Below, piece by piece: positions 20,789 through 64,000 of a stretch of 64,000 nt of DNA. The DNA lies in contig CADCXA010000051.1 of assembly GCA_902806565.1 (NCBI GenBank), positions 434,001 to 498,000 of the forward strand, in the 5' to 3' direction. Position 1 is the stretch's first letter; each line of letters begins with the position of its first letter. The notes below the pieces were generated by a model. It saw only the letters and a program-made list of their open reading frames with translations, was not told where the DNA came from and did no database searches. The position numbers were made by a program, and so were the translations under genes. The DNA comes from Hypoxylon rubiginosum. Lineage: Eukaryota; Ascomycota; Sordariomycetes; Xylariales; Hypoxylaceae.

Positions 20789-22484
20789 AAATTAAACGTA
20801 TTCCTTAATTATAATAAGTTATAAAACATTTAGAATTTTATAAGTTTTATAATATATTAAAATTTTATATTATAGCTTTTATATATATTTAATTTTATTT
20901 TAATAAGTTATAATATATTTTAATTATAAAAAATTATAAAAATAAAATAAATATTTTAAATATATTATAATTAAAAAATATTATAATTAAAATTAATTAC
21001 GTAACCTGGTTATATAAATATAATTAAAAAAAAAGTTATAAGTTTTTTTTTAAATTATATAAATATTTTATTATTATATTATATTAATTTTATATAATTT
21101 AAATTAATTAGAATTTATTTATAAAAATATAAAATAAAAATTAAAAAACTAATATTTAATTATTAAGTTTATTATTTTTTATTAAAACTTTTTATTAATT
21201 TATATTATTCTTTTTTAATTAATATATTTATATTAATTATTTTATTTATATTTTATATTTTATATTTATATTTATATTTAATTTTTTTAAACTTTTATTT
21301 AAACTTTATTATTTTTTTCCTTAAAAATTTTTTAATTAATAACTGTTATTTTTTTTAATTATTAAAATATTATCGTATTTATATTAATTAAAGTTTTATT
21401 TATTATTAATTTAAATATTATTATTATTATTAATAAAATTATTAAATAATAAAGTTAAATTAATATTTAATTTAAATATAATATTATTAAATATAAACTT
21501 AAATTATTTAGTTTTAATATAAGTTAAAATTAATATTAATTTTATATATTTTACTTTTAGTTTTTTATTAGTTTTAAACTTTTTTTTATAATTATTATTA
21601 TTAATTATTAATTTTAATTTATCTTATTTTTATATAATAAGGGTTTTTTTATAAAATTAATAATAAATAATAAAGTTATTATTATTAAATTTTAAATTTA
21701 AATTTAAAAAACCTTTTTTTAAAACTAAGAAATAATATTTATAATTATTTTTTAATTATTAATTTTTTAACTTTAAGGTTTTTAATTTTAAATTTTTTAA
21801 TTATTAATTTTTACTTTATTTTTTCCCCTTTTTTTAATTATTTATTTTTAATATTTCTATTTATAATTTATATATCTTAGTTAAAATTTTTAATAACTTT
21901 TATTTATAATATTTATTTTTTTAAAATTTTATTAATAATAAATTAAATTTTTAAATTTTTATTGTTTTTTTATTTTTAAGTAATAAAATTATTTTATTAT
22001 ATATTAAACTTTAAATAAAATATATAAATATATATTAAAAAAACGTTTTTAAAATAAGATAATATTTAATATTATAATAAAGGTTTAAATATAATAAGTT
22101 TTTATTAATAAAAAGTTTTAATAAGTTTAATATATAAATTTATAATATATATAATTTATTTAGTTTATTATTTTTATTTTTATTTTTTTTTAATATTACG
22201 ATTATATAGTTATAATTAAATAAATAATAAATGTTATTTTAAATTATTATTTAATTTTTATTATTATTAAAAAAATTATTTATATTTAAAAATAAAGTTA
22301 TAAAATTTTATATATAATAATTATTAAATTAAATTAAATATGTTTTTAATATAATATAAGTTATTTTAATTTTAATTAACGTTTTTATAAAATAATAAGT
22401 TTTAATTAAAAAGTTATAATTATTTATTAGTTTTTTTAAATTTATTATAATTTTAATAATTAAAGTTTATAAAAATACTTTTTT

Positions 22485-22580
22485 ATTATTTAAAGTTAAT
22501 TTATTTAAAGTTAGTTTATTTAAAGTTAGTTTATTTAAAATTAATTTATTTAAAATTAGTTTATTTATAGTTAATTTATT
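22485..22580. repeat. 15-bp tandem repeat
   Basis: Six units of TTATTTAAAGTTAGT with G/A and T/A variants at one or two positions, inside AT-rich block II. Confidence 0.65.
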
Positions 22581-24404
22581 ATATTTATATTTTAAATTTA
22601 TTGTTTTTTTTTATAATAAAAATAAAATAATAAGTATTATTTATTAGTTAAAATTTAAATAAAAAATATAGTTATTATTAAAAATATAATTATTTATAAA
22701 TAACTTATATATTATTATATATACGTAGTTATATATATATAACTAATTTTATATATATTTTCCCCGCTTATTATATTTAATAAACTTATTTTATTTCTAG
22801 TAATTAATTAAGTTTTATTAGTTTATTTTCGTATTTTATTTCGTTTATATTATATATTATTTATTTATTTATAAATATTTTATTTTTTAACAGTTATTTA
22901 TTAATATTATTTTATTAGTAAATTTAAATAATTATTATAATATTATAATAAAAAAATATTTAATATTATTTATTAATTAAATTTATTAATAGTTATTAAA
23001 TAATAAGATTTTATAATTAAATATAATAAATAGTTTATTTTTAAAGGTTTTTAAAATATAAAAATTATATTTATTTTTATATATTTATAATATATTAATA
23101 TTTTTCCTTATTACTAGATATTAATAATTACTAATAATAATAATATAAATAATATAAATTATTTTATAATTAATATTAAAAGTTATATTAAAATAATTTA
23201 AAAAATTAAAATTAAATAATAGTTTTATTTTTTAGTATTTTAAATAATATATATTAAGCTTATATTATAATTATATATATAAATTATATAAAAATAATTT
23301 ATAAATTAAATAATATAATTTATTAATATTATTTATTTTTAAATATATAAACGTAATATATATAAATTTAAATATATATAAATAATAAAAAATTATACTT
23401 ATTATAATATAAATAAAATTATAAGAATTTATTTATATAAACTATTTAAATATTTAAATAATAAGTTATTTTAAAACTTAAAATATTAATAATTTATTAT
23501 TTATTTATATATATAAATAAATTATATAATATATAATTAATTTTTTACTTTTTATTTTAATATTTACTTTTTATTAATATATTTTTTATTAATATAAAAT
23601 ATAAAATAAATCTAAAAAAAAAATTCATAGTTACTGTGTTTTTTAATAATAATAATAATATATTTAATTAGATTTAAAAAGTTATTTATATTTTTTATTT
23701 TAAATATAATTTATTATATATATTAATTATTTTATATATTATTAATAATAATAAGTTTTATTATTTATTATTTTATAAAGTTTATATAATTATTATTAAA
23801 AATATTTAAAATAATATTAAAAATATATAAAAACTATATTTTTTTTTTATTAATTAAATTACTTTTTATTTATTAGTATTTTAAAATAATTTAATTAATA
23901 TTAGGATTTATTATATTTATATTTTTTATAAAAACCGTATAAATATAAATTATATATTTAAATATTATAATTAATTTTAAATATTATATATATATATTTA
24001 TATTAATTATTTTTATTATAATTAACGTATTATATTTAGTGATTTTTTTTTAAAAGCATTGGTTTTTTTTTATAAAAATATATTTAAATAATAAAGAAAT
24101 ATATATATTAATAATTTATTTAATTATATTAACTTTAAATTTAATTTTAATTATAATTATTACGTTTTTATATTATAGTTAATAAGGTTAAAAAATAATT
24201 ATATTATATTTAAAACTATAAATTTTTAATTATTAGTTAATTAAATATATATATATTTTATAAAGGATTTATTAAATGTTATTTATATTTTTTTTTTTAA
24301 TTATATATTTTTTTATTAAGATTTTTATTATATTTAAAATAGAAATTATATTATTATTTATTTAAAACTAGATTTTAAATAGAAGAATAAACTTTATTTA
24401 ATAT

Positions 24405-26043
24405 TATAATAAAGTATAATTTTAATATTTTATAATTAAAAGGAGGTATTATAAATAATAATAAATATAAAGGATATATTAAAAATATATTAATTGGTAT
24501 AAATATTTAATTAATATTAAAGTATTATATATAATAAAAGTGGTATTTAAAAAAAAACTATTTTAATATAATATTTAAATAAGTTATATAATAAGTTTAA
24601 GTTATATATAATTTAAAATATTATATAATATTTTAATATTTTAGTATTTTAATTCTTAATTTTATTATAGCTTTTTTTTATAGTAATAATAAGTTTTTAT
24701 TAAATTAAAGTTATATAAAATAAATAAATAAATAAATAAATAAATAAGTAATTAAATATATAATTATTAAATTTAAATAAGCTTTAAAAAAAAAAATTTT
24801 AAAATATATATATCGGTAGTTTCCTTGTAATTTTCTTTTTTATATCTAATATTTTATAACTTTTCTTTTTATATTTAATATTTATACCTTTTTATATATA
24901 ACTAGTATTTTAATTAATTTAATATTATTTTAAATTTTTTTTTTAAAACCTTAAAACCTTGATATTTAAAACTTAATTTAACTTAAACTTAAACTTAAAC
25001 TTAAACTTAGATTTAGATTTAAATTTAAACTTAAATTTAAACTTAAACTTAAATTTAAACTTATAAATTTAAATTTATAGATTTAAATTTAAAAAAATAA
25101 CTATATAAGGTTTTTTAAGCTTTAAAACTATTATTTTATATTTAATTCTTACTTAATATTTTATTTAATATTTTAAATATTTAATATTTTTATAATTAAT
25201 ATCTTAATAATTAAAATCTTATAAATTTTAATTAACTAATATTTTATAATTAATATTTTAAATATTTAATATTTTTATAATTAATATTTTAATAATTAGA
25301 ATTTTATATAACTAAGGTTAAAATCTTGTAAGTTTTAGTTAATTAGTATCTTATAATTAATATTTTACTTAATATTTTATTTAGTATTTTATAATTAGTA
25401 GTTTATATAATTAAAATTAAAATTTTATAGGTTTTAATTAAAATTAATAAATATTATATATAACTAATAATAATATATATAAGTTAATTAATATTATATT
25501 GGTTTAATTAATAGATATTATATTGGTTTAATTAATAGGTATTATAAATAATTTTACTTGTAAGTACCTAAGAATTTTTTAACGTGTAAATTTTAACGTG
25601 GTAAAAAAAAAAATAATAAAAAGAAATAAAAAGCTTTGGGACTTTTATATTTAAAAGCTTATAATATTTATTTTAATTAATACGATATAAAACTATCGTA
25701 TTAATTAAAATAAATATAAGGTAAACGGTTTTTTTAAAACTGTAATTATATAAATTTAAATTTAAATTAAACGCTAATTATAATAAAATATAACTTTAAT
25801 ATCTTATAATTAAAAAAAAACATTATAAGTAATAATAAATATAAAAAATATATTAAAGATATATTAATTAATATAAATATTTAATTAATATTAAAACACT
25901 ATATATAATAAAAATAATATTTAAAAAAAGGTTATTTTAATATAATATTTAAATAAGTTATATAATAAACTTAAGTTATATATAACTTAAAATATTATAT
26001 AATATTTTAACACCTTGGTATTTTAATTTTTAATCTTATTATA
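24405..26043. mobile_element. miniature LTR element, copy A (TRIM-like)
   Basis: Two direct terminal repeats of 265 bases each (24405-24669 and 25779-26043) enclose about 1.1 kb. The repeats begin TATAATAAA(A/G)TATA and end TTATTATA, consistent with mutated TG...CA LTR ends. The interior has an (AAAT)n run (24719-24750), a stretch with six-base periodicity TTAAAC (24980-25060), many TAATATTTTA repeats, and just before the right repeat a perfect 23-base inverted repeat (25665-25687 with 25694-25716, loop of six). Copy B at 30896 shares the order of all these parts. No coding frame, so it is either a non-autonomous terminal-repeat element in miniature or an internally deleted one. Confidence 0.75.
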
Positions 26044-26386
26044 ATATTATATATTTTTTAGTTATTAATTAAATATTATAATATAAATATTAAAATATAT
26101 ATATTATTTTATAATTATTTTTTTTATTTAATTTTTTATATTTTAATTAAATTTTTATTCGCTTATTTCGCTTAAATTTTATTTATTAAAAAGGTAATTA
26201 AAATGTTTAATAATAATATTTCTTATTAAAAATATTTTATTATTTTTTTTAAATATAAAAACTTTTATAATAAATAATTTATATAATAAATAATAATAAT
26301 AAAATAACTTTTTAATTTTAAAGTAAAAGTTATTAATATTAAAAAAGTTAGTTAAAAATATAATATTAATAAAATTTTATAAAATA

Positions 26387-26481
26387 TAAACGAAGTTAAA
26401 AAAAAAAATATAAATAAAATTAAAAAAGAAAATATAAATAAAATTAAAAAAAAAAATATAAATAAAGTTAAAAAAAAAAAC
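26387..26481. repeat. 24-bp tandem repeat
   Basis: About four units of ATATAAATAAAATTAAAAAAAAAA with small changes. The 24-base period is a multiple of three, so it could be a relic of a coding repeat, but nothing else supports that. Confidence 0.5.
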
Positions 26482-26628
26482 AATATTAAATATTTAAATA
26501 AACGTTTAGTTTATTTAATATATATTAAATAAATAAAGTTTAATAGTAATAATAATTTTAAGTATTTTTTTTAAAAATATTATTATAAAAAATTAATGTT
26601 TTTAACGTATATTAAGTAATTTAAACTT

Positions 26629-26648
26629 ATTAATAATAATAATAATAA

Positions 26649-26696
<48 letters not shown>
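26629..26696. repeat. (AAT)n microsatellite
   Basis: About 22 AAT units with one interruption (AAAAAT) near the middle. Confidence 0.85.
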
Positions 26697-26697
<1 letters not shown>

Positions 26698-29600
26698 TTT
26701 AACTTTTTTTTTTTTAGTGATTTAAATAGTAATTCCCGGTTTAATTAAAAAAAAAAAGCTAAGTTTAATTTTTTATATTTAAATATTAAAATTAAGTTTA
26801 TATTATTTTATTTATTTGTTAATTTTAATTTTATTTTAAAGTTATTTATATTTATATTTAATTTAATAAGTGGTAATAATTAAAATTTAAATTATTATAA
26901 AAATTATTTTATTTTAATTATTTTTTATATAGTTTTTATTAATATTAAGTTTTTTATTAATATTAATTTTAAAGTTAATTATAAAATTATTTTTAAACAC
27001 GTTTATAATAATTATATTTATTAAAAGGTTTAATTGTTTTTAATATTTTATTTATAAAAAATTAAGTTTTTTTTAATATATTATAATTAAAAAGGTTAAA
27101 TTGTTTTTTATATATTATTTTTTTATATATATAATTTATAATATTTTTTAAATAAATGTTTTTATAAAGATAATATTTTATAAAATATACACGTATAAAT
27201 AAAAAAAAAATAGTTTAATAAATTAGTTTATTATTTTATATATCGCTTAATAAAAATTTTAAGTTAATATTTTTTTATATTTTTAAAATATAAAATTTCT
27301 TTTTATATTATAACTTTATAATATAAAATTAAAAACGTTTAATTAAATAATTTTTACTTATTTAAATTAATATTAATTAATTTTATAATTATAATTTATT
27401 TAAAACTTTTATTTTTTTTATTATTTTATATATATTTTAAACTGGTTTATTTTTAATATATAACACGTATTTAATTATTATATATTTTTTTAAATTATTA
27501 TTAAAACGTAATTTATATAATATTAATTTTAAATTATTTGGTATTTTTTTTATTTATTTAATCTAAATAATTATTTAATTTAAATTTTTAGATTTTATAA
27601 ACTTTTATAATTATTTTTAATTAATATTATTTAAGTTTATATAGTTTATAAGATTTTTTTTTAACTTATAAAAAATATTTTTTAAAAAACCTTATTAATT
27701 TTAAAAAACCTTTTAATTTTATTTTAACTTTTTTATATTATAAGAATAATATTTATAATAATTATTATTATTAAGTTAAAAAAATAACTTTATAATTTTA
27801 TAAATTAAAATAATAATAATTAATATATTAGTTTTTATTTATTAAACTTATTATTTTATAATATAAATTATTTTAACTTTTTTAAGTTTAATTAAAAATA
27901 AGTATTAATTTTAAATTAAAATAAATTAAATTATTTTTTAATTTTATTTTATATGTTTAAGATTTTTTATTATATTAGTAAAAATAACGATTATTTTATA
28001 TTAAAAAATAATAAAAATTTAATTAAATATATATAATAAGTTTTAATTAAAATTAAAAAAATAAAAATAAATAATATTATAACTTTAATATTTAATAATT
28101 TATATATATATTAAGCTTTGTTATTTTTTTAAATAAACATTTTATTAATAATTTAATAACTTATTATTAAATAAATTCTTTTATTAAATATATAATATAA
28201 AAATTAAATTTATTATTATAAAAAAATTAAGTTAAATAAAATACTAATTATTAATTATAAAGGTAAATTTATATTAATTTTTTTTAATTAATTTAAAAAT
28301 TTTAATTATTATTAGTTATTTATATATAAATATATAATATTATTTTACTTTTAAAATAAAACTATATTAATTATAAAATAAATAATAATAAATTTTAATA
28401 TTATATTATTTTATTTAATTATTTTAATAATATATATACCGGTTATTATTATAATAATATTAAAAGTAAATACTTTTATTAATTTAATATATAATATATA
28501 AATATTAATAAATTTAAATAATAATAATTAATTTTTTTAGTAATTATTAATAAATATATTAAAATAAATAATATATTAATTAATATTTTTATATTAACTT
28601 TAACTTTTTTTTAATATAACTTTTTATTATTAATAACTAAAAAAAATATAAAACTTATAGTAAAATAAAAGTTAATTAATATTTATTTATTTAAAATAAT
28701 TAAAATAATTTACAGTTTATTACTTTAATTATTTAATATAATAAAAAAAATAAAATAATTAAAATATAACAGGATTTTTTATTTTAAAAAATAAAAATAA
28801 GTTAAGTAATTAATTAAAAATGTTTTATATATATATTAAATATAATATTATTTATAGTATTTATTTTTAATTATTTATTAATTTTTATAGGATTTTAAAA
28901 TATATAATATTTAATAACTTATTAAATTTTATTTTTAATATTTTTAAGATTCTTAACTTTTAAATAAACTTAACTTTTAATATAATTATATAAAATTATT
29001 TATATATAAATATAAAAATTTTTTAATTAATATTAATTATATTAAAAAATTATTTTTATAACTTATTTATAGTTATAATAAAATAAATTAATATTAAGAA
29101 TTATTATTTAAATTATATATATAACTGGTTTTTATTATTTTAAATTAATTTAATTTTTAATAAAATATATTTTATTTTATTAAATAACTTATTAAGAATC
29201 TTAGTTTTTATATTATATTTATTAAATTAAATTATAATTATTTAAATATTATTATAAAAGTTTTAATTAAAATTTAAATTACGTAGTATTATAATAAGAA
29301 AATTAATTTTTAATTTTAATTTAATTAATAGTATTTTTCCTGGTTATAAAACTTAAATTATTTTAATTAATGTTTTTTTAATTTATTGGTTATTTATTTT
29401 AATAAACTTATTTATTAAAAAGTATTTTTATTTCTTTTTAAAAATATTAAATAATAAGTTATTATTAATTTTTTATATAAATATATTATATATAAATAAA
29501 ATAAATTTAAAAATAAAAGTGTTTAAATTATATAATATATTATCTAGGACTTTTTTTAAGTAAATATAATTATAAAAATCCTTAATATTATTAAACATTT

Positions 29601-30895
29601 TTATTATATTAAATATTAATATTAGTTTATTAGTTTTAAAGTTATAAAAAATTATTTAAAATTATTATAAGAACTTTATATTTTTTATATTATTTTATTA
29701 AACCTTTATATTTTTTATTAAATATAGTTTTTAAAACTTAAATTATAAAAACGAATTTTATAAATAAGTATTAATAATTTATAACCTTGATTTTTTTTTA
29801 ATTATAAATAAAATTTATATAAAGTTTCTTTTAAATAAAGTAAGTATTTTATTAAATAAAAATTAATTTTTTTATATATTATATAATATTTTATAAATTA
29901 TTTTAAATATATATTTATATTATATAATAATTTTATCTTAGATAATTAATAATATTTATTAAAAAAGATTTACTTTTATTAATTTTTTTTAAATATTATA
30001 TATTAAATTATTATTTAAAATAATAAGAATTTTAAACTATAAATAAGTGGTTTTTTTATTAAATAATAAAAATATTATAATATTAAATAAAACTATATAT
30101 AATATAATATTTTTTTTTAATTAATAATAATAATAAAATGTTAAATATAAAAAGATTTTCCTAGTTTTAACTAGGTTTTATAAATAAAAATATATAAAAA
30201 AAAAAGTTTATTTAATAGTTATTATAATAATATTATATATAATATATTAATTATTATTTAATATTAAAAACGTTTTATTATATAAACTTATTTTAATATT
30301 ATAATTATAATTTAATTTTTTTTTAAATAAGTAATTAATATAAACTTTTTTTTAATTAAATTAAAACGAAAAAAAACTTATTTTATTTTAATTTTTTAAG
30401 TTTATAATAGTTATTTTAATTAAATATAAATTATAATTTAAATAAATAATTTTAATTAAGTTAAATAAACTTTATATTTTATTAAATATTTATATTAAAT
30501 TATTATATATAAACTTTTAAAATTTATTTTAAATATAAATTAAATTTTAAATATTATTTTTTTATAAAACGTATATAAAAATAGCTTTTAATTAATTATT
30601 AATTAAAAATATTTATATTTTTTTAAAGAAATTCTTTTAATAATTATTATTTTTTAAAAAACCTTAAGTTTAATAAGTATTTTAAAATATTAAGTATTAA
30701 ATATTATTATATTTTATTAAATTAAATTAATTTTTAACTTTAAAAATTAAAATAAAAGATATTTATAAATAAAATCTTTTATTAGTTTTTAAATAAATAA
30801 AATATATTTAATTAAGTTTTTTTATTACTTTTTATTTATATTTTATTTATTTTTTTTTTATATATTATTAAAATAAATATAAAAAGTTTTAATAT

Positions 30896-32431
30896 TATAA
30901 TAAAATATAGCTTTAATATCTTATAATTAAAAGGTATTATAAGTAATAATAAATATAAAAAATATATTAAAAATATATTAATTAGTATAAATATTTAATT
31001 AATATTAAAGTATTATATATAATAAAAATGGTATTTAAAAAAAGGTTATTTTAATGTAATTTTTAAGTAAGTTATATAATAAGTTTAAGTTATATATAAC
31101 TTAAAGCGTTATATAACATTTTAACATTTTAATATTTTAATTTTATAATTTTATTATAGCTTTTTTTTATAATAATAATAAGTTTTTATTAAATTAAAGT
31201 TATATAAAATAAATAAATAAATAAATAAATAAGTAACTAAATGTACGATTATTAAGTTTAAATAAGCCTTAAAAAAAAAATTTTTAAAACACGCGTATTA
31301 ATAGTTTTTTTATAGTTTTTTTCCTTATATTTATACCTTATAACTTTTCTTTTTATATTTAATATTTATATTTTTTTATATATAACCAGCGTTTTAATTA
31401 ATTTAATATTATTTTAGATCTTTTTTTTAAAATCTTAAAACTTTAATACCTAGGATTTAATTTAACTTAATTTAATTTAAATTTAGATTTAAATTTAAAT
31501 TTAAACTTAAATTTAAACTTATAAACTTAAATTTATAAACTTAAAAAAATAACTATATAAGGCTTTTTAAGTTTTAAAGTTATTATTTTATATTTAATTT
31601 TTACTTAATATTTTACTTAGTATTTTAAATATTTAATATTTTTATAGTTAATATTTTAATAACTAAGATTTTATAAGTTTTAATTAATTAATATTTTATA
31701 ACTAGTATTTTATTTAATATTTTATTTAATATTTTAATTAATATTTTATTTAATATTTTATAACTAATATTTTATATAATTAAGGTTAAGATTTTATAAA
31801 TTTTAATTAAAATTAATAAATGTTATATATAACTAGTAATAATATATATAAATTAATTAATATTATATTAATTTAACTAATAAATATTATATTAATTTAA
31901 CTAGTAAATATCGTAGATAATTTTACTTGTAAAAACTTAAGGATTTTTTAACATATAAATGTTTTAATATAAATATCTTAATATAATAAAAAGGAAAAAA
32001 TAATAAAAAAAAATAAAAAGCTTTAAAATTTTTATATTTAAAAACTTATAATATCTATTTTAATTAATATAATAATAAACTATTATATTAATTAAAATAA
32101 ATATAAAATAAATATAAACGATTTTTTTAAAACTAGTTATATAATTTAAATTTAAATTAAACGTTAATTATAATAAAATATAGTTTTAATATTTTATAAT
32201 TAAAAGGTATTATAAGTAATAATAAATATAAGGGATATATTAAAAATATATTAATTAATATAAATATCTAATTAATATTAAAACACTATATATAATAAAA
32301 ATAATATTTAAGAAAAAACTATTTTAACGTAATTTTTAAATAAGCTACGTAATAAACTTAAGTTATATATAACCTAAAACGTCACGTGACATTTTAACAC
32401 CTTGGCATCTTAATTTTATAATCTCATTATA
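30896..32431. mobile_element. miniature LTR element, copy B (TRIM-like)
   Basis: Terminal direct repeats of 263 bases each (30896-31158 and 32169-32431) around about 1.0 kb. It is colinear with copy A: (AAAT)n at 31210-31231, the TTAAAC/TTTAAATT stretch at 31460-31545, TAATATTTTA repeats, an AAAAGCTTT block and a degenerate version of the hairpin before the right repeat. The right repeat is the least mutated of the four and keeps CACGTGACATTTTAACACC and the end ATCTCATTATA, which pairs with the repeat's start as inverted LTR ends do. Flanking ATAT occurs on both sides but is uninformative in such DNA. Confidence 0.75.
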
Positions 32432-35400
32432 ATATAAAATATTTTAATTATTTTTATAAATTTTATTATATTTAAATTATATTATAAAAATTATATGGTT
32501 TTATTTTAAAGTTTTTATTATTAATTTAAAGTTATTTTTAATATAATATTTTATTTTATTCTTTTTTTTTAAATAAATAACTAAAAGTTAAATAAATAAA
32601 TATATATTATAAATTAAAAATTTTAAAAAATAATATATTAATTTATATAATTTAATAAAACGGTTATATAAATATTTATTAATTTTATTATAAGGTTAAT
32701 TTTAATTTTAATTTTATTATAATAATATTTTTTTTTAATATAAATAAATTATAATTTAATTATTATTTTTATAAATATATTTATAAATATATTTAATTAT
32801 TTTTATAATAACGTAGATTTTAATATTAATATACGCTTAATATTTCTAGTTAAAAAAAAAATTATATAATATTATTTAATTATTATTTTATTTTATTAGT
32901 TTTAAATAACTTAAGATTTTAATATATAATTTTTATTTATATATTAAATATTTATTTAATTTAATTATAATTTTAAAGTAAAATAATTTTAAAAAGTTTT
33001 TAAAATAATGGTTTTTAATTATATAAAGTAATTTTAAATTTATTATATTATAAGGTTTATATATTATATTAAATAATATTATTTATTATAAAATGTTATT
33101 TAAATTAATATTAGTTTTTAAAATTTTAATTTATATAATATAGTTAATATTTATAAGTTTTATAAATTAATTATAATTTAATAATAATAAAGAAATTAAA
33201 TAATATATATAAAATAAGTTTTTTTTTTAATATTTAATCGTTTAAATTATATTATAATATTTATTAAATTAATTTTTCTTTATAATATTATTTAAAAATA
33301 CTTTTTATTTTTAATTAAAAATATAAATATTAATATTAAGTTAATTATTTATAATTTAATTTAAAAGAAACTTATTTTTTATTTTTAATTAGTTTAAATT
33401 AATAATGAAAATAATAAAAAAGGTTAATTAATTTAAATAACAAATAATAATTATTAAATTTTAATAATAATAAAATATAAATTTTTTATTATTAATAAAT
33501 AAAAATAATAAATATATATTATAGTTAATATTAATTAAATTAATGTTTTTAGTTAAAACGGTGTTATAAAAATTATTTTAAAAGGTTTTTTATAAATTAT
33601 TTTATTTATATTTTAATTATTTTAAAGCGATTTATTTTATAATAATTTAAATATTAATTAAATATTATTAAAAAAGTTAATTAAATATAAATAAAATTAA
33701 TACTTTTTATTTATAATTATATAAATAATATTAAAAATATTATTATAAAAATAAGTTTTTTTTTTATAACTTTTATTATAAAATTATATGTTTAAATTAT
33801 AGTTAATTTTTTTATATAATTATATTAATATATAAATAAATAATATATATATTAAATAACTTATAAAAATATATATATAAAAAAATAACGTTTTTTTTAT
33901 AACGGTTTATTTAATTAAAATGATTTTTTTTTATTATTAGTTTTTTTTTATAGCGTTTAAAATAATACTAATAATATTTTTAGTTTTTAAAAGGTTTTTA
34001 TATTACCAATTTATATTTTTTTTAAGAATTATATTTAAATTAAATTTTAATATAAATTAAATTATAAAACTATTTATATTTAAATCCTTTAAATTATTTA
34101 TAGTTTTTTATATTTATTTTTAAATTATAATATATTTTTTAATATATAAATTATTTATATAAATCTTTTAAAAAAATTATATTAAAATATTTAAGTTTAA
34201 GTTATTATTATTAATAATAAATTAATATTAAATAATTAATTATAAGTTATAAAAATATAATTAAATATATTTAAGTTATTTATTTTATATTATTTTTAAA
34301 AAACTAATTATATAATATAAGGTTTTTTAAATTTAAAAATAACTGGGATTTAAATTATTAATATTATAATTAATAAATTTATATAAAATAAATATAAAAA
34401 AAAAAAAATTAAATTATTAGATATTTTTTTAAAATTTTTAAGTTTTTAAGTTAAAGTTAATTAATAATAATTATAAAAACTTAAGAAGTTTATAAATTTT
34501 TATTAGTTATATATTTTTATTTTTATAATAAAATATAAAAATTTTTTTTTTTTTTGTTTTTTTTTTTAAAACGTTTATTAAATTAATAAAATATATTATA
34601 AATATTTATTTATAAAGGTTTATTATTATATAACTAAGCTTTATAATATTTAATAAGGTTTAGTTATTTTTTATAATAAAAATATAAAAAATATAATAAA
34701 TAGTTTTATTTTAAAAGTTATTAATTTAAAGTTTAAAATAATTATAAAAGATTTTAAAACTTAAACCGTTATTATTTAATTATTTTATTTTCCTTAGTTT
34801 TAAACTTTTAAAATATTTAAATTAATAAGATATATTTAAACTAATTTTACTTAATAATTAATATTATTTTAAAGTATAATATAAATAATAAATATAATAA
34901 AAATCTTTTATATAAAAATTAAAAGTTATTTTAAATAATATATAAATTTTTTTATATTTAGTATAAGTTTTAATAAATTTATATATATTTATTATATAAA
35001 AATAAAATAAAAATAAATGGTATATAATTATAATAAACTAATTTTAAATAATAATAAATTTTAAAAAAACTTAATTATATATTAAAATATAATAACATTT
35101 ATATATTAAAAGTAAATAAAATAATAATAATTAAAAAAAACATTTAATATTAATTAAAATTAAAAAATATAAATAAAAAATTTAAATAAAAAGTAGGAAA
35201 ATTTATAAATAAAAAAAAGTATATATAAGATTTATTTTTTTTTAGATTAACGTTTTTAAAACGCGTTTAATATATTTTATTATAATATGTTTTATTATAT
35301 AAAAAACAAATAAAATAAAAAGTTTTAAAAAAATAAATATATATTAAAACTACTTAAATATTTAAATTATATATTAATATACTATTAGTTTTTTTTAGAT

Positions 35401-36969
35401 TTTATTAAAAATAATTAAATATTATTAAAATATAATAATTAAAATTAAATATAAATATATTTTATTTTAATTTTTATTTTAATATATTTAATGTTACTAG
35501 CTTTTATTTAATTTTATATTTAATATTTTTAAGCTTTAAAAAAAAACTAGATATTTTATTAAACTTTAATAAAATAAATATTAATATAAGTTTTAATAAA
35601 AAACTTAAATTATTATTTATTATAATTAAATTAATTAATATTAATAATAATAAAAAGTTATTTTTTTTTAAAATTATAAATAAAAAGAGTAAATTATTTA
35701 ACGAATTTATAAAAATAAAAGCCTTTTTATTTATAAATATAACTAAAAATAATATTAGTTTATAAAAATTATTTTTTTAATAAAACCATTTTTAATATAA
35801 TTTATTAAAGTTTTAAAAAAGGTTAAAAAATAAGTTTCGTTTTTATAATAATAAGTTTTTATTAACTAAAAAAAAAAAAAAAAGATTATAACGTAAAACG
35901 GCCTTTTATAAAAAAAGCGTTAAAAAGTTTATTAAAAAAGTTATTAATATTATAAAAAACTTATATATATAATTAAAAATATTTATTATTAATAAAAATC
36001 TTAAAATATTATAACTTTATAAAATAACTATTTATATTATTTAATAGATAGTTATTAAAACTTTAATTTAAAAAATAATAATTAAAAATGATTTTTATAA
36101 AAGATTTATATAAAAAAAATAAAAAAAGATTTAAAACTAAATAATAAAAAAATAATTTTATAGTTTTAAAAAATATAAACTAGCGAGTTAATTTTATTTA
36201 TTTAAAGTTAGTTTTATTATTATTATTATTATTATTTTTAGTTTAATATTACTAATAAATAATTATTTTTTATTAATTTAAAATATAAAATTATTTAATG
36301 GATTTAGTTTTTAAATAAATTTAATAAATATATATATACTTTTAAAAAAATAAATTATAATAAATAAAAAAGTTATAATAATAATATATTAACTGTTAAA
36401 ATAAAAAGTAACTATAATATTAAAAATAAAAAAAAATGTTTATATGTTTTAAATTTAAAAAACTTTTATAATTAAATTTTAATATTAAAAAATACTTATT
36501 TTATTATATAGTTTAATAAGTTAAATAAATGTTTATTATAAATATTAAAAGTTAAATTATAATTAAATAAGAATAAAAAAAAATATTTAAATATAATAAA
36601 AATAAAAAAATAAAAAAATAAAAAAATAAAAAATAAAAAAATTTTATATATAAATAAAAAAATAAGTTTAATTTTTTATTATATATAAATATAAATATAA
36701 GTTAATATTTTATTATTAATATAATATAAAATATTTAAAGGATATTTATAGTTAAAAGCTTAAATTAATATAAATAAGTTATTTTTAAATTAATATATTT
36801 TATTTTTAAAAGTTTAATTAATTATAAATTACTTATTTTTTAAATATAATTAGTTAAAATTTATTAAATATATTTGTTATTTTTAAAAGCTTTAATAGTT
36901 ATAAGTTATTTATTTTTTAAATATATTTAATTAAGTTTAATTAAATATATTTAAATTAAAATTAAAATT

Positions 36970-37760
36970 TAAATGTTTTTTTATAAATTTTATAAATATA
37001 GTGAAAAAAAATCTAAATTAATTAAATAATAAAAATAATAATTACTTATTTATTTTTTAATTATAATTAATTAAATTTAATTAATTATATTTAAAGTTAA
37101 TTAAAAAATTAATACTTTTTTATAAAACTTATAAACGTAATTAAAAAAATAATAAATTAATTAAATAACTAAAAATTAAATAAATAAAAATTATATATTT
37201 TTTAATTATACTTAATTAAATTTAATTAATTATATTTAAAGCTAATTAAAAAATTAATATTTTTTTATAAAGTTTATAAACGTGGTAAAAAAACTATAAA
37301 TTAATTAAATAATTAAAAGTTTAATTATTTATTTTATAAATATATTTAGTTAAATTTAATTAAACTTATTTAAAAATATTTTAAATATATTAAAATCTTA
37401 TTTTATATATTTATATATTTTTTAAATATATTTAATTAAATTTAATTAAATATATTTAAAAATAATAATTAAAATATATTAAGATATTTTTTTATAAGTT
37501 TATATATTTTTTAAATATATTTAATTAAGTTTAATTAAGCTTATTTATTTTATAATTAAAAAACTAAGTTATTTTTTTATAAATTTTATAAATATTATTA
37601 AAAAGGTTATAAATTAATTAAATAATTAAAAATAAAATTACTTGGTTTTTTAATTTTTAAATATATTTAGTTAAAATTAAATAAATAGTTTTAAATAATT
37701 TAAATATTTTTTTATAAGCCTTATTAATAATATAAATTAATTAAACGTTATAAATAAATA
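36970..37760. repeat. degenerate tandem array, units of about 85-145 bp
   Basis: The anchor TTTTTTATAAA..TTATAAA recurs near 36975, 37115, 37261, 37486, 37571 and 37707, and between anchors the order AATTAATTAAATAA, then TTTAATTAAATTTAATTA, repeats. Units differ by transitions and small length changes. It may be an old satellite or the tandem part of a transposon. Confidence 0.55.
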
Positions 37761-37869
37761 ATTATAAAAATAATAATTAATAATATAATTTAAAATATTA
37801 TAAATTTTATAAAGTTTATTTAGTTTTAATTAAAAAAAGAAAAATTATATTATAAGTTTATATAATATT

Positions 37870-38075
37870 ATATTTATTAAAATAAAAATTATAATTAAAA
37901 GTTAAATTTATTATATTTTTTTACGTTATATATAAAACTTATACTAATTAACTAGTTATATTTTAACGTATATTTTTAAAAAAAAAAAGTTATAATTAAA
38001 AATTAAATTTATTATATTTTTTTATATTATATTAATATTTATATTAATTAGTTAATTATATTTTAATATATATTT
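37870..38075. repeat. direct repeat, two units of about 110 bp
   Basis: The segment from AATTATAATTAAAAGTTAAATT to ATATTTTAACGTATATTT at about 37887-37974 is repeated at about 37988-38071 with C/T and G/A differences. Confidence 0.5.
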
Positions 38076-52579: not shown

Positions 52580-53738
52580 TCATCGGTGGACCTTATCGAG
52601 CCCGCTCCCCTTAATCATCGTCGAGTCTAGCATGCCTTCCCAGCCCAGCCACGACAAGAACCAAGCGACGGTCGACATGCCGCCGCTCCAGATGCTCCGC
52701 TTGGGCGTCGGCCGCAGCAAGTCGCCGACCACCTGCCTCGCGAACGCCTCCGGTTCGACCCAGCGCGCCCCCTGCAGGAACTCGCGGTTCTCCACGCTGG
52801 CCGCCACGGGCCGGTACAGGCTATCATCGGGGATCTTGGTCGGCGGCGTGTTGTCAAACAACTTGGTCCGCACGCCGCCCGTCATCAGGGTAACGAACCG
52901 GACGCCCAGCGGCGCGAGCTCGACGCGCAGGGTCCGCGCGACGGCGTGCACGGCCGCCTTCGACGCATTGTACGTGTCACACGGCTCGATCCGAGTGGCT
53001 TACCTGATTAGAGAAACCCATGGTCACAGATCTTGGCAAGCGCGTATCCTGTATATTGATGTGTGAGTTGGCTGAGGTTGAATGGATGGAGATAACTCGG
53101 ATTGAAACAACAAGACCAACACACGTCAGTCGGGCGCTTAGAGCGGCAATAAGGCAGAAATCAGGTAGCAACCTTGGGATATAAATAGGGCCTTAGATTC
53201 CTGTCTAAATTGAAGGGGATCAAGGACCTTAGGACCCGTAAAGATTATTATATTGAATTGAAGCTATTCCAAGTCTCTGATACAGACCCTTGTCACAGTA
53301 CGCGACCTGGTACGGCGGGCAAAAAACCTCGTTGATGCTGCCGACGGTCGCCACCGCGCCGCGGGCCCGGGCTAGCAGCGGCAGGAAGGCGTGGGTGACG
53401 GCCAGCACGGCCACGACGTTGGTCTCGATGACGCGCCGGAAGTCGTCGACCTTGGCGTCGGCGAAGGGCATCACGTGGTTGACGCCGGCGTTGTTGACGA
53501 GGTAGTCGAGCGACCCGCCCGTGGCCTTCTGCACGGTCGCGAGTGCGGACGCGATGGACGCGTCCGAATTCACGTCGAGCGCGAGGGTTTCGATCCCCAG
53601 CTCGGACAGCGATCGCATCTTGCTCACGTCGCGGGCCGTTGCGAAGACCTTCAATCCCCGCGATTGGAACTCGGCGGCTAGTGCGGCGCCGATGCCACCC
53701 TCGCTACATCCGGTGATGAGAACGGACTTGGGTGGCAT
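52580..53738 (-). pseudogene. short-chain dehydrogenase/reductase split by a solo LTR
   Basis: The coding parts 53738-53298 (147 codons) and 52969-52580 (129 codons plus stop) together make a normal 276-aa classical SDR, probably of the AYR1-like group reducing acyl-dihydroxyacetone phosphate or related ketones. Visible motifs: ITGCSEGGIG for NADP(H), NNAG, the catalytic Ser in VGSINEV, and the Tyr of YxxxK. The LTR entered directly after the catalytic Tyr codon (TAC), so Tyr147 is separated from the NASK that follows. Reading through the insert gives stop codons after about 22 residues. The gene is markedly GC-rich, especially at third positions, compared with its neighbours. The C-terminal part with MTGGVRTKLFDN and a hydrophobic tail is intact, so the lesion is recent. 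Confidence 0.88.
52975..53297 (+). mobile_element. intact solo LTR inserted in the dehydrogenase gene
   Basis: 323 bases, starting TGTCACACGG and ending CCTTGTCACA, i.e. TG...CA ends, flanked by the perfect 5-base duplication GTACG at 52970-52974 and 53298-53302. A TATA box (TATAAATA, 53180-53187) gives plus orientation. No internal retroelement sequence, so it arose by LTR-LTR recombination. Composition is normal and unmutated, unlike the matching LTR at 17559-17881. Confidence 0.92.
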
Positions 53739-54087
53739 TTTGATATGTTATGTGAAACTATCTATGTATCTAGGTGTGTTCACGAGTCGCTAAGAGATCC
53801 CCGTCTCGGAGCTTCGGTCTAGCAGGCTTCATTGAAACGTCGTTAAACCTGGGAACTTGAGGCAATTGGGATTGTGGGGGCTACTCCCCTAATTTCACTG
53901 TCAAATGGACTGGTCTAGACTCTGAGAGATAACTCTTTTGGTCAAATCTTCGTATTCGCAAAGCTACGGACTCTTAGTTACAAACCACCGAAATAGAAGA
54001 TGAGAACCACCGCATTGCGGATAGATCTATGGATATAGAACTCTGGGGCTGTTAGCTTTTATGTCCACGATCAGTACTCCCACGTAT
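53739..54087. other. intergenic region
   Basis: Promoter side of the dehydrogenase and 3' flank of the MYND gene; nothing else seen. Confidence 0.4.
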
Positions 54088-57420: not shown

Positions 57421-59022
57421 TTACTCCAGCCATCTCAGAAGCTCACTAAGTTCCGTGAGGAACCCAATGTGTTCCACGTATCCATCAGGTCTGATATAGG
57501 CATAGGATGGTTTCGACGCACCAAATTCTTTATGTAAGTGGTTCCCAATGTCCGTATATCCGGACGCGCTGTCGGAGCCGGCTGGTTCGCTTAGGATCAT
57601 ATGGAGCTTAGCTCTGTCGAGGTTCTGGTTCTCAAATTGAGACTGAGCCTCCAGCAGATCTTCTTTCGTGGCGGCACTAGCGCCGACTCCAGCGAGAAGC
57701 ACCAGGTGGTATGCGTCCGGCGTGATAAGTTCCAGGAAATACTTTTCTTTCCCCGCGCTCCGGATCAAGTTGTCGGGGACTCGGTCGCCTCCCACGACCG
57801 AGCCGGAAAACCCTGGGGCCGTCGCTACGACAGGGCTAGCCTTATAGCTGATACCAAATTCGGATATGAACTTGTAAATGTTGACGCGACGATTCCGACT
57901 GCTGACAAACCATGGTAAGACCCATGTGAACAGCAAATTGCGGAAGGTCACGAAAAAGGGGTTGGAAGAACACCCCCAAGTGAACATCTTGTCGGAGGTT
58001 TCCAGCAGATTCTGGCCGATCGGGCGACGTTCCCGGTCGTAGCTGTCAAGGAACGAGTCAGGCCGTTGACCACGGATCACTTTGGCTAGCTTCCAGCCTA
58101 GGTTGACAGAATCTTGAATACCGGTATTCATCCCCTGAGCACCGGCTGGCGAGTGAATATGCGCTGCGTCGCCCGCGACGAATAGTCGACCGTCGCGGTA
58201 ACTATTCACGCCCCGATGATGGAGGTGAAACTGAGTGATCCACGTCGGATTGTACAATTCGCCTGCGTCCGGATGAAGTTGGTTCAGCATGGTTTGAAAG
58301 TCCTCGAGTTTCGGATCTTCATTCCCCTTGGGACCCATGCGTGATACTACAACTCGACATGTGCCATTCTGCAGAGGGAAGACGGCAAGAGATCCTCTGC
58401 CCATGCAGAGGGAGAAGCGGTTCCATGGAATGTTCGCGTTTCTGATAGAAGCATCGCACAGGATGAAGTCTTGCGGATAGGCTGCACCTTGAAAAGTGAG
58501 CCCTGTTGCTGCGCGTCTCACGCTGCTGTGCGCTCCATCGGCGCCGACGACGTATTTCGCACGGATGGTCTCTTCGGTGCCATCCGGTCTGCTTAGTTTG
58601 ACAGTGGCGCCTTTGGAATCCTGCACGACAGACTGCGCCTCCAGTCCACGCTCAACGGCGAAGCCGCGCTTTGCAAGACATCCATCCAAGAACTCTTCTG
58701 TGTCGACCTGCGAGATGATGAGGATAAGGGGAAACGCCGTGTCCTGGGCGAGACCGGAGATGTCCACATCTGCCGCTTTCTTGCCATTGAGATAGAATGT
58801 GGTGCCGCTGCTTAGGTTGCCTTGCGAAACCAACCTTCGCACATCTCCATGCCTGTTTAATAGCTCCAAGGTGCGCGGTTGAACACCCAAAGCCCTCGAC
58901 TTGTCCGACCGTTGAAGTTCCCTGTCGACGATGCGAAAGGAGATCCCATGAACAGCTAGTTCCAGCGCCAATGTCACACCTGTCGGCCCTCCGCCCACGA
59001 TTAATACGTCCGTCTCTTGCAT
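57421..59022 (-). CDS. FAD-dependent aromatic monooxygenase (PheA/TfdB type)
   Basis: Single exon of 533 aa. Rossmann motif VLIVGGGPTG at residues 7-16 followed by the acidic end IVDRE, the DG motif YVVGADGAHSSVRR at 157-170, and the GD motif GRLFVAGDAAHIHSPAGAQGMNTG at about 278-301. The C-terminal 150 residues resemble the thioredoxin-like lid found in phenol hydroxylases. Enzymes of this group hydroxylate aromatic rings with NAD(P)H and oxygen and occur both in catabolism and in secondary-metabolite clusters. It lies 3.1 kb from the RiPP precursor on the same strand; ustiloxin clusters also contain flavin monooxygenases but of a different subgroup, so membership is only possible. No introns, complete length. 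Confidence 0.9.
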   Translation of the reverse strand: MQETDVLIVGGGPTGVTLALELAVHGISFRIVDRELQRSDKSRALGVQPRTLELLNRHGDVRRLVSQGNLSSGTTFYLNGKKAADVDISGLAQDTAFPLILIISQVDTEEFLDGCLAKRGFAVERGLEAQSVVQDSKGATVKLSRPDGTEETIRAKYVVGADGAHSSVRRAATGLTFQGAAYPQDFILCDASIRNANIPWNRFSLCMGRGSLAVFPLQNGTCRVVVSRMGPKGNEDPKLEDFQTMLNQLHPDAGELYNPTWITQFHLHHRGVNSYRDGRLFVAGDAAHIHSPAGAQGMNTGIQDSVNLGWKLAKVIRGQRPDSFLDSYDRERRPIGQNLLETSDKMFTWGCSSNPFFVTFRNLLFTWVLPWFVSSRNRRVNIYKFISEFGISYKASPVVATAPGFSGSVVGGDRVPDNLIRSAGKEKYFLELITPDAYHLVLLAGVGASAATKEDLLEAQSQFENQNLDRAKLHMILSEPAGSDSASGYTDIGNHLHKEFGASKPSYAYIRPDGYVEHIGFLTELSELLRWLE

Positions 59023-62000
59023 GACTACAAGTTTCTCTGAGCCTGTGTCGAATGTTCCCGACTTAGAGAGTTAGGTTCTTGGGGTTAGGATTGCCATGGG
59101 AAGAAATTAGTCCGGACACGTCCAGGACGTAGCCCTACCTAGGTGGCGTAGATATTTGAATCAAAAAAGCACCATCCGAATATCCCTTAGCATGTCTACC
59201 TGATATTAGGATAGATCAACAGGCCGTTAGAAAATAGCCTGCCCCCCTCCCTAAATAGCGCATGACGCGTCGATGTCATATTGATCGGGTTGTTCCTTTG
59301 ATGCATAAGACTTGTTAAGGCATCTATTTTCAGGAGTGGAGGAGTGGAGGATTACAATCCCGCCTGTCGAATACTTCTACGATATCATGCTACCTTTAGC
59401 ACCTAGACAAGAAACAGCGAAACAGCGGTGGGCTGCATTTATTCACCCACCCAATTACACCGATTGCCGATGGCAGCGTCGTATGTGTAGAACCATGGGT
59501 GCGGGTAGATTACAATACTAATTTATATAGGACCGCTAGTGTAGCTTGCCCTTTGAACATGGCCTGCATCATAGGCCAGTTGAGAGTAAGCCATGCGCAC
59601 CGGACGTCCAATTAAAAGTAGACACCCTTCGGCATATCGATCGACGGGGTACATAGAGGCGTCAGGATCTAAAACATATTAAAAAGGGATCCTCATTCCT
59701 AATGGTCTAACGAGACCAGGGTGGCTGGGATATTTTTCAATAGCCTGAACTAGCCCTAGCTCCCAGGCTCCATCAATTCCTAGGCACGGCGTATCTTTGA
59801 AGATCCTCGCGCACACGCCTAGAGCTGAGAAGGATTGCCAATACCAAGTGGGAAGAAGAAATGTATTAATTCAGATGAGAAGCATATGATAATTGCTTCT
59901 TTAGCTTACCTACCTGGTAGGTAGTCGGTTCGGATACCGAATTTCGCCTGGCGAAGGAGCTGACAGATCGTATCATTTATCACCTTGTTGCATCGGAGTT
60001 ATTTCTGCAGAGCTCTTTTCCCAACCAAGGGTCTGCATATATTCTGCATATTAACCCACCCCTTAGATAATCGGTGAGAACAGCATCAGATTTCGGCACA
60101 TTCGCTGCATCATGTAGTGGAACAAGTTCTTCACAGAGCTCGGTGTCATTCTTGGTAGGAAACACGTAATGAAGTTCAAGTCACGAAGAGGATACAATCA
60201 CCTAACTAAGCTTTGTCATAATAACTGATTATTTCGCATCGGTCCCTATTTATTTCATTGAAGAGCAATGCACTTCTAGTCACGCTTCTTTCTCACTTCT
60301 TCTGGAGTTCAATAGAGGTTCGCCGTAAGACATTCGTCATCTTACGTGAAGCACGCAGAGCCACATTCCATATCTCCGGCGACCGTCAGCACGGCAAACG
60401 GTGAGCTTAGCTCCGTCCTATATATTGCTCGGGACCGAAAGGACTATAGTGACAATCAAGAGGAAGTAGTTTTATATCATGAATGTTTTTAGTCAGAGTT
60501 TCCGGTGGCTGCAAAGACGCGTCAATACCTAGGTGGTTTCGACGATATGGCAAACCCACTCCGAGCTTCCCAATAAGCTGTTGCTAGTTCCCAGGCTATT
60601 CAAAGAAATGCACTTATCTACATGAATCCTAACAGGAGTTAACCCGGGAATGCGACGTATGTGAGAGCCTAGATCTTCAACACGCTTGAATTAGTTTGAG
60701 GGTTGAAGAGCCACCAAAAGGGGATGATGGGAGCCCAGTGCTAATACGGCAGAGCCCGGTGTACAACACGGCCTGCCTCGATAACTATCCGCACCGAGGT
60801 TAGGAACAAAGAGAAGGGAAAGAAGAAATAAATCACTAAATTACCAGAGGTACTATTATGCCGCCCCTATTTTTCGTTCAGATTCTAACCTTGGTAATAC
60901 TCGACACTACGGCCCGTAAAGCCTATATACTGTTTTTCTAAGCTATTAGAGGATTAAGTCTAGAAATATCAAACTCTATATATGCTTGAGGATTTTTCTA
61001 GGGGTTATATCGCCATTTGCTGGATACCTAGTATTTACCTACGGTATTACACTCATTTTCGTGAATGTCACAACGTAGACCTTTTAGATAGCTCTAAACA
61101 TACCCACCTAAGGTACCTAGATATTGAGTTTATTGTTCATGAAGTGACTGACTGCCTACCTAAAGTAGGTAGGTAGGTAGCTAATGCATTAACTTTCTCC
61201 TTCTCACCTTAGGATAAAGGACACACATTGACTTCCTTCCATACCCAAGAACCGGATTAACAACACCATTTTTCTTTTAGGAAAATTGTTTAGAGACTTG
61301 ACTTATTTAGAGAATGTTGAGTTATACATAGCAAATACCTTGACTCCGATAACCACGAGTGACAACGAGAAGGAGTTGAAAAGAATGGGTCCGAAGTCGC
61401 GTAGCCGTAAAACATATAAAAGAGATAGTGTGAGTAGTAGTGTACCGAACTTAGAGATGTGTGTCATAACTTCAAACCCCATTCAGGCTCTCTGCCTCCT
61501 GTGATGAGACTTCAATTCTAAACGAAGAGATCATATAGTGCCGTCTAGCAGCGATCTTCAGACTAAGGTGAATTCCTTGTCTTCATATCTGCTAGAATAT
61601 TTCCACCTTATCCGGGCTCGAATTATGAGTAGGGCTACGGACCTGTTAGTTGCCCTTAGAGCTTAGATAGGAGTCACTAACCTAGATCCCCATGGCCTGG
61701 ATAGGGGGCTAAGGGGCCTGGATAGAGGTTACGGGCTTATTGGTATTAAGGAAGGGATGAACTTGGGAGGTAGGCGTATAGGTCCCTTTGTCCGACCTCT
61801 TATATATACATAGGACTTAGTAACCCCCTAGGTTCATAGCTCTAATGGAAACTTTATAATTGCCTCTCCCTCGGCTCCAAGCTCTTAGCTCTCTGACCTT
61901 GCTTGCCACCATGTGGCGCCCCTTTAATCTCTTATCATAAATGCTGTACTCCCACCTCTTTGGATAGCCAAAGTTGGTTATATTTGTCGGGTTTAATTTG

Positions 62001-62132: not shown

Positions 62133-62462
62133 TTACTCAGTCTCGTCCGCCTCAGCAATCTCCTTGTAGGTAGGCCTGTACTGACGTTCCTCAAGGCCAG
62201 TCTCATTTCCTTCGTCAATCTCCTTGTAGGTGGGTCGGTACTGACGTTTCTCAACGTCGGCCGGCTCTCCTTCAAGAGCCTTCCCGACCTTGAGAGTAGG
62301 CCTGTACTGGCGCTCAGCGAGTCCTGTAGAAACCTAGACCTCATATGTTAGACTGAGGCTCATGAGGAAGGTCTCACACGGTTTATCAAAATTACCTACC
62401 TCAACAGGTGCTGCGAACGCAACGGCAGCAAGGCCGGAAAGGAAGATAACCGAGGCACGCAT
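62133..62462 (-). CDS. RiPP precursor peptide with three QYRPT(Y/L)K cores (dikaritin-like)
   Basis: Exon 1 62462-62400 (21 codons) encodes a signal peptide (MRASVIFLSGLAAVAFA, then APVE). A 66-base intron (GTAGGT, branch TCTAAC, acceptor TCTAG) precedes exon 2 62333-62133; total 87 aa. After the leader come three repeats of 16-22 residues: AER-QYRPTLKVG, EKR-QYRPTYKEID and EER-QYRPTYKEIA, joined by acidic spacers. Secretory leader, tandem core, and cleavage at KR are the layout of ustiloxin, phomopsin, asperipin and epichloecyclin precursors, which are cut by the Kex2 protease and cyclised through Tyr by UstYa-family oxidases. Only the middle copy has a canonical KR; the others have ER. Copy 1 carries Leu in place of the second Tyr. 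A divergent UstYa gene lies 1 kb away. The core is not one I know. Confidence 0.85.
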
Positions 62463-63476
62463 TTTGACGAAGACTTTAAAGATCAGGAAGTATTGGTCCT
62501 GAGGTCGAAGAGAAATCTACTGGGCGATTGTGTGGACATAATATGGGGGTGTTACGAGAACTTATACCCGTGTCTAGGTGACGGAACCCGGGGTTGGTGT
62601 GAGATGAGAACATTCTACGAGGCACTCGATTCATCGGAAGCACATTCACATGCTCCCCTACATATCATCGGTCCTACATATTGTGCCATATCATCGGGGC
62701 CACGATGTTTGCTACACTCCCCCGCGCGCACCGGCCCTACGGTTCCCACTGATGGACCGCAATCCGAGCCAACCAACGAAGATCCCTTCCTCTTCCGCGA
62801 TTGGTGGTGACCACGACTCATGGTTAATGCGACGTGATCTAGCGTGGCATTGGTTGACCTTCCCCGATGAGTGAGCGAAGCTAAATATCCAGGCATACAG
62901 GCATCTGAAAAGGGGCGATTATACAAGGCTAGGGTGCTCGCGTAGTCCTATCCGTGCCGTCTCCGCGCCGCACGAGTACAAGCTCCTATTACGCCTTACA
63001 GGTCTGAGCGAAGTAGCGTTATTCTCAAATCGTCCAACCCCGATCGCAAACTTCGTATAATTAAGCCAACAATGGCACCATTCCAGGGCTAGCCAACCAG
63101 TCGGGTGCTTGTCAGGGTTGGAGCCGGGGACATTTCTGTACAACACAAACCGTTTTCAAACGAGCAACTCCTCCTCCTCTAGAAGCCAGTCCCATGTGAA
63201 GCAGATGCATGGATCGTTATTAGCCCTGACCTCTCTCGGAGCTACCAATCGCGATTATACTAGGTTTATCATTAAGACAAGTTATTCAGGACATTCTGCC
63301 TCGTCTAGGCGCTTACAAACTTCATCAAGATCGCCAGCTGTGCCGCTTCCTTCGAATGCATCCATGGGATAAGTGCCGGCGGCAAATATTTTACCAATTA
63401 CAAGCTCCCGTAGCGGGGCGTCCAGGTGAAGGACATCGCGGTCCCCTATTTTCACAGTTGCTAAAGACTTCGATCA
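62463..63476. promoter_or_regulatory. divergent promoter region of the RiPP precursor and the UstYa gene
   Basis: About 1.0 kb between the two start codons, normal composition, no coding frame supported on either strand. Its position suggests shared control of both genes. I see no strong TATA box or an obvious regulator site. Confidence 0.5.
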
Positions 63477-64000
63477 ATGTTCACAACTAGCATCTGGTCG
63501 AACATGTCGGATTCCAAGTTCATATATGCGCCGGAACGCTCGTCCGTAGACGGCATATCAAACGAATCCCTCGCGTCGCCGTCTTCCACCCTCGCCATGG
63601 AGGATGAGGAGACGGAAACACTGCTGAGCGAGAAATCACAGCGGGGGAAAGGCCAGATTCGATGGGGATCATGGACAAGCCCTACCATACTATTATCAGC
63701 CCTAAATATTGTCATCTTCTTAATGTCGCTGGCCCTTTTCGTTGCATCGCGAAGCCAAAAGACCCCTCTCAATGCAGAGCTTCGCCGGGCATCAACTTAC
63801 AGTAAGAAAGCATCCCAGCCATCATCCAAAATATACCTAGGTACCTAAAGCAGTTGCTAAAGCAGGACAACAGGCCCCGTATTCGACAGGTTAGACCTAG
63901 AAATGAAGCCGCGGACGGTTCAGGGGACGCTGTTCGCTGCTAAGGAGGGGACCTCGATCGCGCGGGAGCTGCCGAACGCGGCCGCCGACGAGCTGTGGGA
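63477..64000 (+). CDS. UstYa-family (DUF3328) oxidase, 5' part, cut by the window end
   Basis: Exon 1 63477-63801, intron 63802-63873, exon 2 from 63874 past the end. ATG 63477 or the in-frame ATG 63504 (MSDSKFIYAPERSS) may start it. An acidic cytosolic N-terminus is followed by one membrane helix (about residues 65-87, ILLSALNIVIFLMSLALFVA), then NAELRRASTYSPVFDRLDLE across the intron and MKPRTVQGTL, SIARELPN and DELW: the standard opening of UstYa-type proteins. The acceptor was chosen because it alone keeps YSPVFDRLDLE open. The two HxxHC motifs of the active site lie beyond 64000. UstYa and UstYb form the macrocycle of ustiloxin; here the substrate should be the precursor encoded at 62133-62462. 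Exon 2 is strikingly GC-rich. Confidence 0.88.

Follow-up and report, generated by a model that had tools for sequence, protein, structure and literature searches.

A two-gene unit at the end of a 64,000-nucleotide stretch of Hypoxylon rubiginosum DNA (the window; contig CADCXA010000051.1, positions 434,001 to 498,000) looks like a real, hitherto unstudied member of a known fungal class of ribosomal peptides. On the sequence evidence, the unit is probably of the dikaritin type of RiPP, in which a single UstYa would oxidise Tyr2 of several different cores. The original prediction of a dikaritin-type locus is supported by the UstYa gene, which is complete and carries two HxxHC motifs, by the repeat precursor beside it and by the co-occurrence of the two genes in other Hypoxylaceae where this could be checked. 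New in the present analysis is a family of 13 Hypoxylaceae precursors with 33 cores.

The precursor, read as a gene model from the window DNA, is encoded on the minus strand and comprises 87 residues, with a single intron that includes an in-frame TAG and, by inspection, a CTAAC branch-like site (Table 1). Both the length and the 66-base intron had been predicted and are borne out by the model and by a public protein from another H. rubiginosum assembly, F4820DRAFT_444817, which has 87 residues and is 100% identical to the precursor. The prediction of an identical protein in a second assembly supports the gene model; it also contradicts the expectation that gene finders were likely to miss the gene. 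The product starts with a segment judged signal-peptide-like by inspection, MRASVIFLSGLAAVAFAAP, with M1, A17, A18 and P19 invariant in 13 of 13 precursors, and continues with VSTGLAER and the cores QYRPTLK, QYRPTYK and QYRPTYK, each followed by an acidic-rich spacer. The three tandem cores expected after KR or ER were thus found, with QYRPTYK as two of them and QYRPTLK as the third; the site is KR before one core and ER, which is not dibasic, before two.

Table 1. Features of the precursor-UstYa unit (positions in the window, with numbering continued past its end)
Feature	Positions	Strand	Remarks
Precursor exon 1	62462-62400	-	signal-peptide-like MRASVIFLSGLAAVAFAAPVE, judged by inspection; N-terminus common to 13 homologues
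Precursor intron	62399-62334	-	66 nt, GT..AG; spliced product equals public protein
Precursor exon 2	62333-62133	-	VSTGLAER, three cores with acidic spacers, stop codon
Core 1, QYRPTLK	62309-62289	-	ER before core
Core 2, QYRPTYK	62243-62223	-	KR before core
Core 3, QYRPTYK	62183-62163	-	ER before core
Intergenic region	62463-63476		1,014 bases between divergent start codons; both promoters presumably inside
UstYa exon 1	63477-63801	+	N-terminal helix, membrane-anchor-like (residues 59-83 of 329-residue public model)
UstYa intron 1	63802-63873	+	72 nt
UstYa exon 2	63874-64351	+	63874-64000 inside window
UstYa intron 2	between 64351 and 64427	+	75 nt
UstYa exon 3	64427-64640	+	beyond window

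The divergent UstYa/DUF3328 gene was confirmed and is complete, its start codon lying 1,014 bases from that of the precursor. Three exons on the plus strand (63477-64640, running past the end of the window) encode 338 residues; an alternative start at the second Met (63504) corresponds to the public H. rubiginosum model of 329 residues. This public UstYa, from the other H. rubiginosum assembly, is 99% identical across 97% of the query and matches PF11807 with 157 bits (E 6.8e-46), the match to the present DNA scoring 124 bits. The HxxHC motifs sought in the continuation of the gene are both present, as HQIHC and HINHC, and an alignment of 56 homologues shows H190, H193, C194, H226 and C227 to be invariant and H223 to be retained in at least 90%. 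In a structure model of the 329-residue homologue, the helix formed by residues 59-83 is compatible with a membrane anchor. The tree of the 56 sequences places the 17 closest UstYa proteins on one branch with support of 100/100, a grouping that is partly expected from their preselection as best matches; the branch comprises proteins from Hypoxylon, Annulohypoxylon, Daldinia, Jackrogersella, Parahypoxylon, Whalleya and Durotheca. For the last two genera, the precursor matches obtained contain no counterpart to this UstYa homologue.

A search with the single precursor returned 3 proteins among 10 candidates, and a profile of those three returned 13 among 161, all with E values of 2.3e-16 or better and all from Hypoxylaceae: eight from Hypoxylon, three from Daldinia and one each from Annulohypoxylon and Parahypoxylon, the last three genera being ones that we take, partly from paper titles, to belong to this family. 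No unrelated non-RiPP family to which the repeat protein might belong, an outcome considered in the original prediction, was found. All 13 precursors share AAP, RQY and a KR, and each carries two or three cores, defined as any residue plus Arg followed by Gln or Ile and then Tyr or Asp. Among the 33 cores, QYRPTYK is the commonest (12), with QYEPIEK found seven times, QYDIAAL three times and eleven types once each; Gln1 and Tyr2 are each retained in 32, Pro4 in 28, Lys7 in 24 and Tyr6 in 14. By our own sorting, 24 cores conform to QY[RED]P[TI]x[KE] with Thr or Ile always at position 5 (class K), eight have Leu7, one of these also having Thr5 (class L), and QDRPPSK falls outside both classes.

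Cores of the RPTYK and EPIEK types occur together in three precursors, those of Hypoxylon sp. EC38, Hypoxylon sp. FL0543 and A. moriforme. The spacers of EC38 and FL0543 are alike and their cores different, and H. trugodes pairs EPIEK cores with VHASLEGKE-type spacers, so that cores and spacers are not inherited as fixed pairs. The sites before the cores also follow a pattern, with KR preceding 16 of the 20 later cores and ER preceding the other four as well as 12 of the 13 first cores. ER is a poor kexin site, a point against the preferred reading; in its favour, a kexin-type P_proprotein domain is found at one place in the genome (E 1.1e-16). The ER before 12 of the 13 first cores may reflect cutting by a different protease, or the first core may not be released in the same way as the rest.

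From these features a route can be proposed, in which the precursor would enter the secretory pathway and be cut by kexin and trimming peptidases to give peptides beginning Gln-Tyr, and the membrane-anchored UstYa would oxidise the conserved Tyr2 and join it to a side chain elsewhere in the same core. Secretion, Kex2 cutting and UstYa oxidation are usual for such precursors (PMC9233826, PMC7329392, PMC10512285). Different cores in one precursor lie beside one UstYa, which would therefore have to tolerate several of them. For class K, the beta carbon of Thr/Ile5, three residues after Tyr2, would be a preferred partner over a second Tyr because residue 5 is always Thr or Ile in the 24 cores. We know of no described dikaritin with a ring from Tyr to a Thr or Ile beta carbon three residues on. 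This proposal would not serve class L, since Thr or Ile at Tyr+3 is missing in seven of its eight cores; no good candidate partner for Tyr2 was found there, and Thr/Ile5 would serve class K only. A more far-reaching reading, which we regard as doubtful, is that of a combinatorial RiPP system across much of the Hypoxylaceae, in which one UstYa would act on interchangeable core classes through the near-invariant Tyr2, the main class would carry a Tyr2-Thr/Ile5 beta-carbon link and cores would be exchanged independently of spacers.

Cyclisation is not assured: desaturation, hydroxylation, chlorination and transacylation are likewise catalysed by UstYa proteins (PMC10880069), and clusters for polyketides and nonribosomal peptides contain such proteins too (PMC12048977). 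It is conceivable, if unlikely, that the enzyme here modifies the peptides without ring closure, for example by desaturating or hydroxylating a core residue, as the dehydro residues in the phomopsin pathway are made by three UstYa homologues, and other members hydroxylate or chlorinate (PMC10880069); the lack of a conserved acceptor position across the core classes would also fit. The almost invariant Tyr2 argues for a ring instead, Tyr being the cyclised residue in ustiloxin, phomopsin and asperipin-2a (PMC7329392).

The original prediction had suggested an ether between the two tyrosines of QYRPTYK. Such a bond is possible for cores 2 and 3 of the present precursor and is not supported as general chemistry: the second Tyr is kept in just 14 of the 33 cores, and is Leu in core 1 here, whereas Gln1 and Tyr2 are kept in 32, so that the ether cannot be the shared chemistry. 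A narrower version, in which UstYa forms a Tyr2-Tyr6 ether in QYRPTYK and cores lacking Tyr6 are by-products or stay open, is in our estimation decidedly unlikely. It agrees with the prevalence of QYRPTYK and with asperipin-2a, where internal tyrosines supply the two closing links (PMC9233826), and has against it the 19 cores without Tyr6, among them every core of H. trugodes, H. crocopeplum, H. texense and Hypoxylon sp. CI-4A. Oxidation of Tyr2 in several different cores remains the preferred reading.

The association of the two genes extends beyond the present assembly. Among the matches listed (120 of 179), five of the 13 precursors have a UstYa of the same organism on an equally long contig, namely those of H. 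rubiginosum (407,554), H. crocopeplum (2,544,341), A. moriforme (115,942), Hypoxylon sp. FL0543 (409,102) and Parahypoxylon ruwenzoriense (6,171,264), the last with consecutive locus tags for the two genes (AAE478_001035/001036). For the other eight precursors, a UstYa named for the same organism is absent among these same matches, drawn from a list that was clustered at 90% identity and in which some rows are nameless. A neighbourhood kept over genera makes a chance neighbour unlikely. It follows that a precursor of linear secreted peptides, acting as signal or effector beside a UstYa that serves something else, is very improbable: both genes share an equally long contig in five assemblies, of this or other species, and are consecutive in Parahypoxylon. 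For such linear peptides it can be said that a DUF3328 gene nearby is absent for 78% of KEP genes and that many KEPs are linear pheromone precursors, according to the cited part of the survey (PMC7329392), and that the 43 exon matches to UstYa, spread over about 22 places in the genome (48,274,338 bases, 70 contigs), of which one place is on the contig of the locus (C51), render a chance neighbour not absurd.

The repeat array itself was set against chance in a scan for units anchored on KR, RR or ER, which gave a single match, the QY array, in window positions 38001-64000 and none in three slices farther along the contig. The control, consisting of shuffled frames of 20 UstYa slices, gave 5 matches in 20 passes that totalled 75,000 frames, or 0.25 per pass. 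Cores 2 and 3 score 152 in Tandem Repeats Finder and differ by two synonymous and no non-synonymous codons of nine, while for core 1 the synonymous and non-synonymous differences number three and three against core 2 and one and three against core 3. These codon differences are no more than a slight sign of selection on QYRPT..K, and the non-synonymous ones of core 1 weigh against the preferred reading. A chance repeat or wrong gene model, for which the shortness of the gene and the one deviating core might speak, has a negligible probability and is in the main already refuted by the identical public protein, the 12 further homologues and the shuffled control.

Among the ORFs scanned around the unit, none could be assigned to it as an additional tailoring gene, and those downstream of UstYa resemble housekeeping genes. 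An SDR at 52583-53747 lies more than 8 kb from the two genes and shows no tie to them. The 21 ORFs scanned, in a scan that may miss intron-split genes, include a single transporter, for K+, at a distance of about 22 kb, and none of the 24 tyrosinase matches in the genome is on C51. An intact frame of 549 residues for an FAD_binding_3 monooxygenase (275 bits) is located upstream at window positions 57424-59070, separated from the precursor by about 3 kb, and may be part of the unit or stand apart from it.

The window also contains two extremely AT-rich blocks, at 1-17500 and 21000-38000, with GC contents of 7.6% and 6.4%, TpA/ApT ratios of 1.21 and 1.17 and (CpA+TpG)/(ApC+GpT) ratios of 0.21 and 0.15, respectively. 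They are possibly RIP-mutated repeats or centromere. A 46% GC island at 18000-20500 interrupts them, and an open frame at 19816-20634, inside the island, has an NPHP3_N match of 37 bits.

Elsewhere in the genome, 20 slices over 17 of the 21 other UstYa places yielded three plausible repeat precursors. The first, at 61.7-62.1 kb of contig C18, is secreted-looking, contains five DYVI repeats and, like the QY precursor, has an intron just past a signal-peptide-like start (by inspection); matches to UstYa (39-61 kb) and to tyrosinase (74-77 kb) lie nearby, and the locus is a candidate of the ustiloxin/phomopsin kind. An ustiloxin-like RiPP cluster has been reported in H. rubiginosum (Kuhnert et al. 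2021, PMC8403587) and, as far as the cited part of that report goes, is probably this C18 locus; it may instead be the QY locus. The second precursor, with ESPAYYFYFSKR units, lies at 880.7-881.3 kb of C21, about 0.8 kb from UstYa matches, and the third is a repeat frame with DGATEADTDYWLKAKR units at 825.9-826.2 kb of C56, about 1.4 kb from UstYa matches.

The accessory genes of asperipin-2a are a reductase and a transporter. Comparison with this Aspergillus flavus peptide shows likeness in the single UstYa gene (PMC7329392) and in a core with more than one Tyr; the second Tyr, however, is not conserved in the QY family, and the asperipin-2a pathway needs four genes (PMC10512285), whereas no reductase or transporter could be linked to the Hypoxylon locus. 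Ustiloxin and phomopsin resemble the QY system in precursor layout and in a Tyr that opens the core or lies close to its start. They differ in their Y-x-I-x core, which none of the three cores here contains, although H. texense and H. crocopeplum have QYDIAALRL, which includes Y-x-I; in addition, C51 has no tyrosinase match and one UstYa place as compared with two and five.

The QY precursor would be classed as a KEP, apart from the ER rather than dibasic site before two of its three cores, and KEP type G-6, which is mostly DUF3328-linked, includes the genus Hypoxylon in the cited part of that survey (Umemura 2020). DUF3328 genes were found there near 1,758 of 7,878 KEP genes from 1,461 strains, mostly next door, and Tyr occurs in 65.6% of the repeats of DUF3328-linked KEPs as compared with 38.2% of others (PMC7329392). 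Only five dikaritins had been reported by 2022 (PMC10512285). Given this disparity with the 1,758 linked repeat precursors, a conserved few-gene family is useful rather than surprising, and the natural core variants of the 13 precursors provide a ready test set for the looseness of UstYa towards its substrates and for the residue paired with Tyr. QYRPTYK was proposed as a new core, and in agreement with this it and related core strings have no match in a library of open-access papers, supplementary tables apart; nor was a description of the precursor family found in the titles and abstract openings on Hypoxylon, Hypoxylaceae and Daldinia among the matches listed. The unit departs from the dikaritin class in a QYxPxx core family not found in print and in the ER that stands instead of a dibasic pair before 12 of the 13 first cores, and shares with that class a secreted-looking repeat precursor, Tyr-containing cores and an adjacent UstYa with two HxxHC motifs.
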